IMG/VR virus record: IMGVR_UViG_3300043331_000180
Coordinates: 1-24,708 of that record
From: a virus
Reading direction: 5' to 3' (one strand)
Length of the DNA stretch: 24,708 bases
A model generated the notes under the pieces. That model saw only the letters and a list, made by a program, of their open reading frames with translations, was not told where the DNA came from and made no database searches. Shown here one piece after another: positions 12,200 through 22,781 of this stretch. A program made the position numbers and the translations under genes. The first letter of the stretch is position 1, and each line of letters starts with the position of its first letter.

Positions 12200-12475
12200 T
12201 CACACTACAAAGAAGTGATTAGGCATAGCAGGATCTTGAGTTACAGTAGCACCTGTTGCGGTAGCTTCATAGGTGAGAGGGTCACTCTGCACAATTTCAA
12301 CAGTCTGTGGAGCTGAGGTGTTGCCTTCGGTGTCTCTAACTGTCAAGGTTACAGTTACGGTAACACTATCTGCGTCAACTGCATCGACAAAAATCTCAGC
12401 AGCCTCTCCCGGCAACTTGTATCCTCGGTTGTTGGCGTATTTGACTGTTACACCGCGAATGACTGGGTTAGCCAT
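12200..12475 (-). CDS. Ig-like domain protein, 91 aa
   Basis: A beta-rich protein with alternating V/T residues (S-V-T-V-T-V-T-L-T-V-R-D) and the turn D-T-E-G-N-T-S, as in bacterial Ig-like and fibronectin-type folds of phage tail and head-decoration proteins. Residues 43-68 match residues 9-31 of the downstream glycosidase-like protein (T-V-R-D-x-x-G-N, then V-E/D-I/V). The ATG at 12475 has an ideal AGGAGG, but this lies in the 3' arm of a 19-bp hairpin (12479-12534), so translation may be shut off or the hairpin may act as a terminator. It would be a virion component binding carbohydrate. Confidence 0.65.
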   Translation of the reverse strand: MANPVIRGVTVKYANNRGYKLPGEAAEIFVDAVDADSVTVTVTLTVRDTEGNTSAPQTVEIVQSDPLTYEATATGATVTQDPAMPNHFFVV

Positions 12476-12478
12476 AAA

Positions 12479-12534
12479 AAACCTCCTGTAGTTGATCTAT
12501 CTACTTAAGATATCGGATCAACTACAGGAGGTTT
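12479..12534 (-). terminator. 19-bp hairpin: terminator that contains a ribosome binding site
   Basis: 12479-12497 pairs perfectly with 12516-12534, and the 18-nt loop can pair further (TATCT with AGATA). On the - strand the 3' arm ends ACAGGAGGTT and runs into TTTTAT, so it has the form of an intrinsic terminator for the gene at 12544. The same arm holds the AGGAGG of the next gene, whose ATG is at 12475. Confidence 0.75.
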
Positions 12535-18521: not shown

Positions 18522-19170
18522 TAACATACCTCATAATTCTAGCATACCAGCCTGGTAACCATGCTTCAACTTCAGCCAAAGTTAGATCTTGCTTAACACT
18601 ATTAGCCTTGTGAGTGCAAATTACAACATTACCCTCAACATAGCCTAAATCAGGAATTAGCCTATCTACGCTTGGTGAATTTCTTTTTAAACCTTCACCT
18701 AGAGTAATTTCTATAGGCTCATCTGTATAAAAACACTTACCTTGCTGAATAAGCCAAAGAGAGTATAAATAATTTGCAGTCAGGTAAGTTTTAGGTGTAA
18801 GTCCCTTGGTTCTGCTAATGATTCTCTTTTGACGATCTGCCCAGTATTTGACTGGATCTTTTAATCTATCTTGTGCTTTTTGCGCATTACATGATTTACA
18901 AGTAGATAGTCGCCTGCCATCAGCTAAAGATTTTACTAGAGAAAATTCAATATTTGATTTGGCTTGACCACAAGACTTACATTTAAATATGCCAGGCGCT
19001 ACCTCTATAGGAGCAGTGCCACGAGGGTTATTGGTTTTAAGTCCCAGCTTGGGCAACATTCTTCCAATATACCAGTGTGGCACATTAAGTTTCCTAGCAA
19101 TTTCTCTATTTCCTAAACCTTTAGAGTGTAAATTAATAAGTTCCTGGATGTTTACAACATGATCAGTCAT
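18514..19170 (-). CDS. HNH homing-type endonuclease with N-terminal helix-turn-helix
   Basis: 218 residues. Residues 9-45 form a helix-turn-helix (G-L-G-N-R-E-I-A-R-K-L-N-V-P-H-W-Y-I-G-R-M-L). C-K-S-C-G-Q-A-K (about 64-71) and C-K-S-C (about 91-94) form a zinc knuckle. The nuclease core is G-K-C-F-Y-T-D-E-P-I, then S-V-D-R-L-I-P-D-L-G-Y-V-E-G-N-V-V-I-C-T-H-K-A-N. The ATG at 19170 lies inside the 3' arm of a 19-bp hairpin, with AAGAAAGG in the loop as the ribosome binding site. The gene sits between an intact polynucleotide kinase and a duplicate of its tail, which marks it as a mobile insertion. Confidence 0.87.
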   Translation of the reverse strand: MTDHVVNIQELINLHSKGLGNREIARKLNVPHWYIGRMLPKLGLKTNNPRGTAPIEVAPGIFKCKSCGQAKSNIEFSLVKSLADGRRLSTCKSCNAQKAQDRLKDPVKYWADRQKRIISRTKGLTPKTYLTANYLYSLWLIQQGKCFYTDEPIEITLGEGLKRNSPSVDRLIPDLGYVEGNVVICTHKANSVKQDLTLAEVEAWLPGWYARIMRYVND

Positions 19171-19224
19171 TGCCGATAGTATCCTTTCTTGATGATAGTT
19201 CCTCTATACTATCGGCAATGACTG
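19164..19224 (-). repeat. Perfect 19-bp inverted repeat enclosing the HNH start
   Basis: 19164-19182 and 19206-19224 are perfect reverse complements (CAGTCATTGCCGATAGTAT) with a 23-nt loop. On the - strand the 5' arm begins right after the kinase stop codon, the loop holds AAGAAAGG, and the 3' arm contains the ATG of the HNH gene. The 5' arm and loop also carry TGCCGATAG-TATAGAGG. Confidence 0.85.
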
Positions 19225-20136
19225 CTAAAAATCGCCATCTGCAACCTGAAAACAGGCAAGACCTAGTGCCCTCCACATAACAACCACCTGTCGGCGGTCA
19301 TCAAGAACGTACCTGACATCGTAAACATCACGTACATACTTGTTGAACAGCTCAAGCTTAACGATGTCGTCCTTACGGCCATCACCTTCAACTCGCATGT
19401 ACAAGTAATCCCAGTAATCACCAAGATTTGCGTTCAGCCAGTCTTCAGTAATGCCACGGCAAGAACCGTCGCGGCCTGACATAACTATAATGAAGTCACC
19501 CATAGCTGCCGCAGCTTGGACAGCATCGATTACAGCTTGAACAGGCTCATCCTCACCTACTCGATTCCACTCATAGGGTGAGCGTCCATTCATCTTAGCT
19601 AGAGTGCCGTCAATATCTACCAGAATCGCAGTAGGTAGCTCAGGCTGCTTCTCATAAGGCTCGATAACCAAACGGTTATTTAATTCCTTAGAAACATCTA
19701 CTTCTGCAACCTTGCCATTTCTGGTGAACTTATCCCATAGCATGCGAATAACAGACTCGCCAACGGAATTGTCTCGTGAATTATCACGCTTGATGAGTTC
19801 GTCTAGAGGTACGTTGTCAAACTTAATTGTAGAAAATTCTAGGCTGTTTTCTGCGGCAAACTTCGCCCACTGACGCACGTACTGAGCGCGAAGGTTCATG
19901 TCAGATACGACGATGGAGCGTCCTGCCTTGACAGCAGCCTTAGCCATAGCGAACTGAACTTCGGCGATCATCTTCTCCTGATCTGATGTCAGGTTGTAGC
20001 GAGTAGCGAAAAGCTGATCGCGTAGAAGATCACGTTCAATTCGAACGGTATCAGAGTTTTCGTCTATGAAGTTGGTTGCCCAGGTGCTCTTACCTGATGC
20101 AGGGAGCCCTCTGGTCAGTATAAGTCTCTGTATCAT
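19225..20136 (-). CDS. pseT: Polynucleotide 5'-kinase/3'-phosphatase (T4 Pnkp-like)
   Basis: 303 residues, close to the 301 of T4 Pnkp, in the same domain order. The kinase P-loop is G-L-P-A-S-G-K-S-T at 10-18 (K16, S17), with E-R-D-L-L-R at 34-39. The phosphatase (DxDxT/HAD) motif is V-D-I-D-G-T-L-A at 173-180 (D174, D176). S-G-R-D is at 220-223, and D-D-R-R-Q-V-V-V-M-W-R-x-L-G-L-x-C-F-Q-V-A-D-G-D-F forms the end. It would heal RNA ends with 5'-OH and 2',3'-cyclic phosphate for the ligase at 21201. The ATG at 20136 is 6 nt after a TAGGAT -10 box, so the mRNA may be leaderless. The HNH gene follows. Confidence 0.92.
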   Translation of the reverse strand: MIQRLILTRGLPASGKSTWATNFIDENSDTVRIERDLLRDQLFATRYNLTSDQEKMIAEVQFAMAKAAVKAGRSIVVSDMNLRAQYVRQWAKFAAENSLEFSTIKFDNVPLDELIKRDNSRDNSVGESVIRMLWDKFTRNGKVAEVDVSKELNNRLVIEPYEKQPELPTAILVDIDGTLAKMNGRSPYEWNRVGEDEPVQAVIDAVQAAAAMGDFIIVMSGRDGSCRGITEDWLNANLGDYWDYLYMRVEGDGRKDDIVKLELFNKYVRDVYDVRYVLDDRRQVVVMWRALGLACFQVADGDF

Positions 20137-20142
20137 GGTGCT

Positions 20143-20171
20143 ATCCTATCTCATCTAGAATGCGCTGTCAA
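20143..20171 (-). promoter_or_regulatory. Leaderless-type promoter of the kinase gene, TTGACA-17-TAGGAT
   Basis: TTGACA (20166-20171) contains the TGA stop of the upstream 73-aa gene. TAGGAT (20143-20148) follows after 17 nt, and 6 nt separate it from the ATG at 20136. Confidence 0.6.
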
Positions 20172-20389
20172 GCGCGATGAGAAGTTACACCGCGCTTGAC
20201 CAGCTCTTGATCTACTGCGAACATGAACCACAAGGTCATCTGTCCTGCCTGAGCAGGAGAAGCTGCACCCTTAGCTCCTGTTTCGTGGAATGTCCCATCC
20301 TCTAGGGACTTGGCAACCTTGTCCAATCCCTGAGTAAGGTTGTTCCATGTCTTAACCAGGATTGGAGTCGGGATGTCTGTAAAGTCCAT
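20168..20389 (-). CDS. 73-aa hypothetical protein in the RNA-repair block
   Basis: The ATG at 20389 follows ACAGGAG with a good spacer and overlaps the end of the nucleotidyltransferase gene by 38 nt. The protein starts M-D-F-T-D-I-P-T-P-I-L-V-K-T-W and has two helical parts separated by a glycine/alanine-rich loop (G-A-K-G-A-A-S-P-A-Q-A-G-Q); the end reads F-A-V-D-Q-E-L-V-K-R-G-V. No motif recognised. The TGA stop doubles as part of the kinase promoter. Confidence 0.7.
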   Translation of the reverse strand: MDFTDIPTPILVKTWNNLTQGLDKVAKSLEDGTFHETGAKGAASPAQAGQMTLWFMFAVDQELVKRGVTSHRA

Positions 20390-21044
20390 GCCTAACTCCT
20401 GTCAACCAATCGTTTACGGTATCTCTATCCGGCTTTTCCGGTAGAGCAGAAGGTCCGTTGAATATCTTTTCAGCACCCTTCACTTCTGCGTTGGCAAGGA
20501 TCATGGCTCCGTTAGCTATTGCCTCTCCTATTGAGAAGAAGTAATCAGGGTCGGGTAGCTTAACTGTCAACTCTCCTGTGCGGTACAGATTAGAGCCTTG
20601 CCATAGCAGTCTTGCAAAGTGACGAGCGTTCTTAGCTCGCTTATCGAAACGTTCATCGTTCTGTAGCTTGTTCAACTGAGCTTGAGCATAGCCGAAGTAT
20701 GCACTCCTAACTGCCTTAGCTGACAGGAATGCAGAACGGATCTCTAGTAGTTGATCACCGTACATTGTACGTACATTATAATGTTGCAACCACATCAACT
20801 CAAGGACAGTAGGATTACAGCCCAGAGCTAGCTTGCAAAAGTGTACAGCCTCGTAAAACTGAGTGTCAGGGTTCTTGGTGTTGAAGCCCTTGTGAATATC
20901 AGGAGCGTCAAGACCGAAGAGCATCGCTGTCGGAACAGCGAAAACACCAGCATAATCAAGGTCTGAACCTTCATGGGCTAGCCCGTATGCTGTAGACCCT
21001 ACCACACCCTTCAGCAGAGTGCAACTCCTAGGGTCTACTCTCAT
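20352..21044 (-). CDS. RlaP-type nucleotidyltransferase of the RNA-repair block
   Basis: 230 residues from the ATG at 21044 (AAAGGAAATT upstream); an in-frame ATG at 21071 has no ribosome binding site. The polymerase-beta fold signature is V-G-S-T-A-Y-G-L (G16, S17), then G-S-D-L-D-Y-A-G-V (D28, D30 as metal ligands). P-T-V-L-E-L-M-W follows near 80, and a helical C-terminal half holds A-R-H-F-A-R-L-L. This pattern is that of the predicted nucleotidyltransferases of PF10127 (RlaP), which are often encoded be­side RNA ligase and Pnkp. It may add or trim nucleotides at RNA ends. A three-arm regulatory hairpin lies between it and the ligase gene. Confidence 0.8.
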   Translation of the reverse strand: MRVDPRSCTLLKGVVGSTAYGLAHEGSDLDYAGVFAVPTAMLFGLDAPDIHKGFNTKNPDTQFYEAVHFCKLALGCNPTVLELMWLQHYNVRTMYGDQLLEIRSAFLSAKAVRSAYFGYAQAQLNKLQNDERFDKRAKNARHFARLLWQGSNLYRTGELTVKLPDPDYFFSIGEAIANGAMILANAEVKGAEKIFNGPSALPEKPDRDTVNDWLTGVRHGLYRHPDSNPG

Positions 21045-21114
21045 GACATAATTTCCTTTATGTGTCCGCATCTACACTTGTAGATTTTAACTTCATAATG
21101 AGTCATCCAAGTTG

Positions 21115-21206
21115 GAGCAAAAATAAGAAAGGCTTGGAGAATTGGATTAAGCCTTTCCTCCATATGACTGAACTTATGCCAATGTATATGGAGGAAAGGC
21201 TTAATC
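21115..21206 (-). promoter_or_regulatory. Three-arm terminator/antiterminator between RNA ligase and RlaP
   Basis: On the - strand arm A (21206-21186), arm B (21165-21145) and arm C (21135-21128) follow in order. A and B are perfect complements over 21 bp. B (its AAAGGCTT part) also pairs with C (AAGCCTTT) over 8 bp around a 13-nt loop, and C is followed by CTTATTTTTG. Pairing B:C makes an intrinsic terminator, and A:B prevents it. Arm A includes the TAA of the ligase gene. Confidence 0.7.
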
Positions 21207-22292
21207 GGCATCGTTAGACACCTTAACAGGTGAATAATCGTGAGCTGGCTTTGCTCGCTTCAGAAATTCACGGCGAACATCCTTACCGTCCCATAGCTGG
21301 AACAGAGCCCAGCTCATAGCGTGAGTCTTAGCTTCAAGAGCAAAGTCCTTCTTGGAAGGGTTTACTCCAATCTTCGCTAGAATCCTATCGTAGGCGCGGT
21401 GAGCAATCATAACAGACTCGTTAACGTCACCGTCGATGTCTTCGATAACGCCCTCAACGAAATCATGGAATTCGTCAGGAACCTTCTCGATAAGTTCATC
21501 AACAGCACCGTCAACCATGGCCTGCCACACAGTACGTGCGTTAAGACCAGTTACGATCTTGTGCAGAGCGATGTAGTCTTCCTGCTTGATCTTAACGCGA
21601 ACGTCAGAATCTAGCAGGTGAACTACAAAGCCCTCGCTGTTTGGACGAGGCTCAGCCTCAAGGGCCTGGCGCATAGTGTCGTAAGGAAAAACCTCAGCCT
21701 TAGGACCAGTCCACCAGAATAGGTCAGCGTAATCTGCGTCGTAGCTCTGCCCGGTATCGATGTTCACAGCTCCCAGGAAAACAAGATCCTCCACATCGCC
21801 GTAGTTGCAGACAATGCGGTTTTCCGGGTAAACAATCTCGAAAAGGTAGGTGTGACGATGTGCGGCAGGCTGCCAGTCAGGGTACTTCTTACGAAGTATC
21901 TCGGTAGCCTTGATTGCCTGGTCTGAGGTAAAACTACCGCGAGTAGCAATGTAGTACTTACCATCACGGCCTCGGTAAGAGATACCGAGTGAGCCGTCCA
22001 TCTTGTCAGAAACGACAGCCAGCTCATCCAAGTTGATCTCAGGACAACCTGGCTGACCGTAGTTGAAGAACTTAGGGAACGGACGTGCGATGATGTTGCC
22101 GAAAGCGTCTACGATCAGACCACGGCAATTCAAAGTTACGTTGTTCCATACACCTTCGAATGCTGCCTTCTCGGTGTAGTTGAGAATCCACATCTCGTAG
22201 AAATCAGGATGCTCGTTCGAACGAACGTAGCCCTGAGCTTCCATCTCATCTAGCTCAGCCTGAGTGAACAGGCCAGCATATGGGGTCATCAT
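21201..22292 (-). CDS. rnlA: RNA ligase, T4 Rnl1-like
   Basis: 363 residues with the nucleotidyltransferase motifs in order. Motif I is K-M-D-G-S at 97-101 (K97 is adenylylated). Motif III is F-E-I-V-Y-P-E-N-R-I-V at 151-161, motif IV E-G-F-V-V at 220-224, and motif V V-K-I-K-Q-E-D-Y at 233-240. The upstream R-G-L-I-V-D (57-62) supplies the arginine seen in Rnl1 enzymes. The helical C-terminal part (about 245-363) matches the tRNA-binding domain of T4 Rnl1. It seals RNA ends healed by the kinase/phosphatase, classically tRNA cut in the anticodon loop. The ATG at 22292 follows GGGAG; the stop codon is in arm A of the regulatory hairpin. Confidence 0.92.
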   Translation of the reverse strand: MMTPYAGLFTQAELDEMEAQGYVRSNEHPDFYEMWILNYTEKAAFEGVWNNVTLNCRGLIVDAFGNIIARPFPKFFNYGQPGCPEINLDELAVVSDKMDGSLGISYRGRDGKYYIATRGSFTSDQAIKATEILRKKYPDWQPAAHRHTYLFEIVYPENRIVCNYGDVEDLVFLGAVNIDTGQSYDADYADLFWWTGPKAEVFPYDTMRQALEAEPRPNSEGFVVHLLDSDVRVKIKQEDYIALHKIVTGLNARTVWQAMVDGAVDELIEKVPDEFHDFVEGVIEDIDGDVNESVMIAHRAYDRILAKIGVNPSKKDFALEAKTHAMSWALFQLWDGKDVRREFLKRAKPAHDYSPVKVSNDAD

Positions 22293-22752: not shown

Positions 22753-22781
22753 AGACTACCACAGCTTTTTTGGCACGTCAA
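22753..22781 (-). promoter_or_regulatory. Leaderless-type promoter, TTGACG-17-TAGTCT
   Basis: TTGACG (22776-22781) and TAGTCT (22753-22758) on the - strand are 17 nt apart, and the ATG at 22746 follows after 6 nt. It probably drives the leftward RNA-repair operon. Confidence 0.55.

Follow-up and report, generated by a model that had tools for sequence, protein, structure and literature searches.

A perfect 21-bp hairpin inside a small gene between the RNA ligase and RlaP genes of an uncultivated phage, with a possible role in translational coupling

The window analyzed here, a stretch of 24,708 nucleotides (IMG/VR virus record IMGVR_UViG_3300043331_000180, positions 1 to 24,708), carries on its minus strand a perfect 21-bp inverted repeat, A:B, within a 56-codon gene (orf56) that links the genes for an RNA ligase and an RlaP nucleotidyltransferase. 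We tentatively read A:B as a start-proximal coding stem that restrains orf56 until ribosomes arrive from the ligase gene, with arms perfected by template switching, and we give this reading a probability of roughly 0.4. On orf56 the stem would impede independent initiation or the first steps of elongation; a ribosome finishing the ligase would stand on arm A and open the stem, allowing orf56 to be translated; and translation would then pass to RlaP through a 4-nt overlap. Ligase, orf56, and RlaP would in that case form a translationally coupled chain of the RNA-unfolding type, and arms A and B would have been made perfect by template switching between strands. The features of the region are as follows.

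22753 to 22781, minus strand: promoter-like TTGACG-17-TAGTCT, 7 nt upstream of the first gene of the ligase operon
21201 to 22292, minus strand: RNA ligase (PF09511; phrog_562), the upstream gene
21041 to 21211, minus strand: orf56, 56 codons (MPIKPFLHIHWHKF...CRCGHIKEIMS), containing A, the loop, B, C, and the U-tract
21186 to 21206, minus strand: arm A (GATTAAGCCTTTCCTCCATAT), codons 2 to 9 of orf56, including the ligase stop codon TAA (21201 to 21203)
21166 to 21185, minus strand: A-B loop, 20 nt
21145 to 21165, minus strand: arm B (ATATGGAGGAAAGGCTTAATC), codons 16 to 23 of orf56
21125 to 21135, minus strand: arm C (AAGCCTTTCTT), codons 26 to 29 of orf56, pairing with 21149 to 21159 of arm B
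21118 to 21124, minus strand: U-rich tail ATTTTTG, 3' of arm C, encoding I-F-A of orf56
20352 to 21044, minus strand: RlaP nucleotidyltransferase (PF10127), the downstream gene
20992 to 21038, minus strand: another hairpin, within the 5' coding region of RlaP, with a 10-bp perfect core (GTAGACCCTA/TAGGGTCTAC)
20143 to 20171, minus strand: promoter-like TTGACA-17-TAGGAT, 7 nt upstream of the kinase ATG
19225 to 20136, minus strand: polynucleotide kinase-phosphatase

Read along the minus strand from the end of the ligase gene, the element runs ATGCCGATTAAGCCTTTCCTCCATAT-20 nt-ATATGGAGGAAAGGCTTAATC...AAGCCTTTCTTATTTTTG. The A:B repeat closes a 20-nt loop and folds at −34.9 kcal/mol, and the ligase TAA occupies nucleotides 4 to 6 of arm A. 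Arm B can also pair with arm C, forming 11 pairs (10 Watson-Crick and one G·U) around a 13-nt loop (−12.8 kcal/mol); this 11-bp stem is directly followed by a U-tract (AUUUUUG), as in an intrinsic terminator, and a terminator scan with a loop limit of 8 did not list it. The 116-nt stretch that holds the arms has a folding energy of −41.5 kcal/mol (z = −7.0). Because they share arm B, A:B and B:C are mutually exclusive in in silico folding: A:B persisted when 6 nt of arm A were blocked, a mixture of short A:B and short B:C appeared with 10 nt blocked, and full B:C replaced A:B once at least 15 nt were blocked. A ribosome halted at the ligase stop would, going by footprint size, cover about 15 nt of arm A, which in these foldings favors B:C. 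A preliminary description of this DNA had reported the perfect 21-bp hairpin, the ligase stop within arm A, and the two alternative folds, and had proposed a switch to B:C upon covering of arm A, all of which we recovered in silico; it had given B:C only 8 bp, and the stem proved longer, with the U-rich tail as described. Searches with Rfam models returned only tRNAs and chance matches to microRNA models. The window has six tRNA genes on its minus strand between 10018 and 16509, scoring above the gathering score of the Rfam tRNA model.

That description had placed the element between the ligase and RlaP genes, whereas orf56 encloses every arm as well as the U-tract. The end of the ligase gene and the start of orf56 share 11 nt (ATGCCGATTAA), and 4 nt are shared between the end of orf56 and the start of RlaP. 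Two relatives were available for comparison: G001, a 108-kb contig with a ligase 61% identical to that of the window, and G003, a 135.7-kb contig with a ligase 67% identical; all three, the window included, are uncultivated contigs. The orf56 ATG is kept in both. At the same location G003 has a homologue of 55 codons (orf55; 47% identity; E = 1e-13), with the conserved stretches ...HIHWHKF... and ...KIYxCRCGHIKE..., and 12 of the 27 residues identical between orf56 and orf55 are encoded by different codons. A homologue at the same place with differing codons marks orf56 as a real gene, and on this comparison it is a conserved gene and not an intergenic leader. No family match was found in Pfam, PHROGs, PDB, or INPHARED, and viral contigs yielded G003 only. 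The U-tract encodes conserved hydrophobic residues, FLIFA in the window and LLFFY in G003, and arm A has two codons more than G003, exactly where A mirrors B. Since the arms lie inside a conserved gene and not in an untranslated leader, ribosomes are expected across A, B, and C. In silico folding does uphold the earlier proposal that a ribosome on the ligase stop would free arm B.

The stem exceeds what the coding sequence demands. None of 1,000 synonymous recodings of orf56 was as stable as the native sequence (z = −5.1), and the longest stem was 21 bp, compared with at most 11 bp in 300 recodings. The same held for orf55 of G003 (z = −4.5; 0/1,000 as stable). In G001 the corresponding position is held by an unrelated 90-codon ORF (orf90), for which z was −1.9 over 1,000 recodings and the 17-bp stem compared with at most 10 bp in 300 recodings. 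When structure in the first 102 nt was ranked against 353 gene-start windows, orf56 came 1st, orf55 6th, and orf90 14th; gene starts overall were no more structured than gene middles. With no synonymous recoding reaching its stability or stem length, A:B is not a coding by-product; selection or some generating process has taken it past what coding requires.

Each of the three phages has a hairpin inside the small gene at this junction, and the arm sequences are unrelated. In G003 it is a perfect 13-bp hairpin (AAAGTAGAGTCAA) with a 20-nt loop, followed by TCTTTT; it spans codons 14 to 18 and 25 to 29 of orf55, in alignment with arms B and C, and no arm like A is present. In G001, orf90 has a perfect 17-bp hairpin with a 28-nt loop and neither a U-tail nor a third arm. 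The three-arm layout described earlier thus fails to extend to either relative: a hairpin is kept, but G003 lacks A, and G001 lacks both C and the U-tail. The single tailed hairpin of G003 would also follow the opposite logic, in which untranslated RNA would terminate. A single-sequence RlaP scan of viral contigs gave no match and a kinase scan no relative; at more distant RlaP loci the ligase does not adjoin RlaP, which made them of no use for the junction comparison.

Downstream, G003 RlaP has a perfect 14-bp stem at the same codons as the RlaP hairpin of the window, and G001 RlaP has no hairpin. Sites of the form TTGAC-N-TAnnnT stand 7 to 8 nt ahead of the kinase ATG and of the first gene of the ligase operon in the window, G001, and G003. 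The two sites of the window, each 7 nt from an ATG and kept in both relatives, suggest that these two genes may be expressed from leaderless mRNAs. Having a promoter-like site of its own in all three phages, the kinase need not rely on transcripts that read past the hairpin. No such site was found within the A:B hairpin (21145 to 21206). Elsewhere, promoters of the form TTGAC-17-TAnnnT occur inside hairpins on the minus strand of G001 (55746, 65477, 66233, 79718, and 89888), some of them U-tailed, with the −35 element at or before the 5' arm and the −10 element at the arm end or in the loop; with the elements so placed, transcripts starting from these promoters would lack the 5' arm. Promoter-hairpin overlaps numbered 7 in G001 and 9 in G003, compared with 2.0 and 1.1 in shifted controls, a control that ignores the fact that both features are intergenic.

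Perfect hairpins are abundant in these genomes. The window has seven perfect repeats with arms of at least 12 nt, A:B being the longest, against 0.03 expected from Markov shuffles; G001 has 37 and G003 has 29, against at most about 0.5 expected (loops up to 40 nt). The density of repeats with arms of at least 11 nt was 1.4/kb in intergenic sequence, 0.3/kb in the first 90 nt of genes, and about 0.1/kb in the rest of genes, as delimited by heuristic gene calls. U-tails (at least 5 T in 8 bases) followed 25 of 54 intergenic hairpins and 2 of 19 intragenic ones, with a background of 4.6%. Intergenic hairpins with U-tails often look like terminators, and the rarity of such tails among intragenic hairpins as a class argues that the latter are not mainly terminators. 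Hairpins co-occurred at orthologous gene starts between the window and G003 (6/8 versus 2/11; p = 0.02) and between G001 and G003 (p = 0.03); between the window and G001 they co-occurred at 0 of 21 pairs.

Several individual hairpins deserve description. In the window, G001, and G003 alike, a stem stands at the start of the gene that follows ribonucleotide reductase, and its arm sequences differ among the three. At 12479 to 12534 the window has a terminator-like hairpin with a perfect 19-bp stem; the Shine-Dalgarno (SD) sequence AGGAGG lies in its 3' arm, and its U-run separates the SD from the ATG at 12475. G003 repeats this arrangement (SD in the 3' arm, U-run spacer) in a different sequence. 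Another perfect 19-bp hairpin, at 19164 to 19224, includes in its 3' arm the start codon (ATG) of an endonuclease VII-like gene, similar to the T4-type hairpins that mask the starts of nuclease genes. G001 has a two-copy element (53874 to 53931 and 59691 to 59748; L063) whose internal loop (AGTTGTTATCT...AGTACGTC) is conserved and whose outer and inner stems covary; it had no Rfam match and was absent from the other loci examined. An assembly artifact is an unlikely source of the perfect repeats, which are also present in two independent contigs and in the isolate GiJojo. In GiJojo (PP725410), an isolated Streptomyces phage, a perfect 15-bp hairpin lies at 20117 to 20159, 13 nt past the stop of a homologous RNA ligase gene.

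Several of these observations favor translational coupling: the standing of orf56 as a gene with a G003 homologue in the matching position, and the scarcity of U-tails on intragenic hairpins; the 11-nt and 4-nt overlaps, the ligase stop within arm A, and the melting of most of A:B by a 15-nt block; structure in orf56, orf55, and orf90 above that of recodings, with high ranks among gene starts; and the positional match of the RlaP hairpins in the window and G003, together with co-occurrence at orthologous gene starts. Other phage gene pairs are known to be coupled by RNA unfolding (PMC12548453), and work cited in the same review reports that structure just after an upstream stop lowers coupling. 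Other observations weigh against it. The orf56 AUG sits 5 nt before the stem, and only the initiation footprint overlaps A:B; the SD-like stretch, like the AUG, is 5' of the stem and outside it, so any sequestration would be only indirect. In addition, the small ORF of G001 is not homologous and G001 RlaP has no hairpin, gene starts are not generally more structured, and hairpins of the window and G001 coincide at none of the 21 pairs.

An unlikely alternative, which shares with our own reading the origin by template switching, is that A:B is a mutational by-product, with template switching creating perfect inverted repeats that are merely tolerated. Among the stems of at least 15 bp counted in these phages, 32 were perfect and 3 had a mismatch, and the sequences do not survive between relatives. 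The excess of perfect stems and the two codons inserted at arm A relative to G003 suggest template switching as the source of the perfect arms; perfect inverted repeats within coding genes, and homogenization by template switching, have been documented in other systems (PMC6649704 and PMC8604942). Strand-specific mismatches in imperfect stems (G·U versus A·C, 2 versus 1) are too few for a test of selection at the RNA level. That hairpins recur in position, both at this junction in all three phages and at further orthologous gene starts, suggests use and not mere tolerance. A more ambitious version, which we hold to be rather improbable, would have perfect hairpins throughout these genomes keep their positions at gene starts while template switching rewrites their sequences, the one in the window being a bistable three-arm element in a coding gene that ties expression of RNA repair to ligase translation.

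Ordinary polarity offers a different account, in which orf56, when untranslated, would let B:C or the 13-bp hairpin of G003 stop transcription before RlaP, and translation would keep the path open. The two hairpins fall on the same codons in wholly different sequence, both with at least 5 T in the next 8 bases, and ribosomes prevent such hairpins (PMC5021804). Untranslated RNA of the window, however, would fold into A:B and not B:C, so that no termination would follow; the U-tract could be accounted for by F, L, and I codons, and G001 has no tail. We consider this quite improbable, and the same can be said of a stem for RNA processing or stability, such as an RNase III site parting ligase mRNA from RlaP mRNA. 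The latter would be suited by a perfect duplex of 21 bp placed at a junction between operon genes, as would the recurrence of stems at operon junctions in these phages, but cleavage would break the orf56 reading frame.

The terminator/antiterminator switch first proposed, in which ligase ribosomes on A would bring about termination before RlaP and loss of translation would permit read-through, accords with the mutually exclusive folds, the similarity between the block of at least 15 nt and the ribosome cover at the ligase stop, the occurrence of the tail TTATTTTTG after terminator-like hairpins at 53874 and 79718 of G001 as well, and the G003 hairpin that takes the place of B:C and is followed by a U-rich tail, yet it is very improbable, given arms within the putatively translated orf56, a three-arm layout missing from both relatives, a G003 hairpin that would respond oppositely, a kinase with its own promoter-like site, a B:C stem that is modest as a terminator (13-nt loop, −12.8 kcal/mol), a U-tract that hydrophobic coding could explain, and intragenic hairpins mostly without U-tails (2/19 versus 25/54). 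That the repair genes might respond to a host anticodon nuclease is an idea taken from gene identity only.

Should the hairpins be functional, these phages would provide a clear case of RNA structure kept by position within coding genes while its sequence turns over fully, and a route by which a phage links the synthesis of its tRNA-repair enzymes. The junction also illustrates how what looks like a plausible terminator in a single genome can turn out to be the interior of a small gene.

Compared with known systems, the element resembles ribosome-mediated attenuation of the trp/pyrBI type in that one arm has two possible partners and a ribosome stop codon falls in arm A. It differs in that no separate leader peptide is present, the arms lie in a conserved gene, and the three-arm layout is not conserved; neither a noncoding leader nor an alternative pairing kept in G001 and G003, the marks of an attenuator, was found. 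The extended start-associated sequences (ESAS) of cluster K mycobacteriophages (PMC3203893) are likewise inverted repeats (17 bp) at the starts of actinophage nonstructural genes. They are imperfect with a shared consensus, whereas the repeats here are perfect with no common sequence: by inspection, the long repeats of the window, G001, and G003 share no consensus of the ESAS type, in which the repeats are linked to a 13-bp SAS. T4-type hairpins that sequester ribosome-binding sites (gene e, soc, I-TevI, segB, and Aeh1 mobE; PMC2988022) are likewise extended hairpins located where genes begin on long phage transcripts, and other hairpins of the window resemble them in covering an SD sequence (12479 to 12534) or a start codon (19164 to 19224). 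At A:B, in contrast, the SD and AUG lie outside the stem, and the hairpin has no internal promoter. Set against coupling by RNA unfolding (MS2 coat-lysis, Escherichia coli rpmI-rplT, and f1 VII-IX), the stem of the window occludes neither the SD nor the start of orf56, is perfect and longer, and begins 5 nt after the downstream AUG in coding sequence; what it has in common with those gene pairs is an overlapping stop and start and a stem near the downstream start that a ribosome completing the upstream gene would open.
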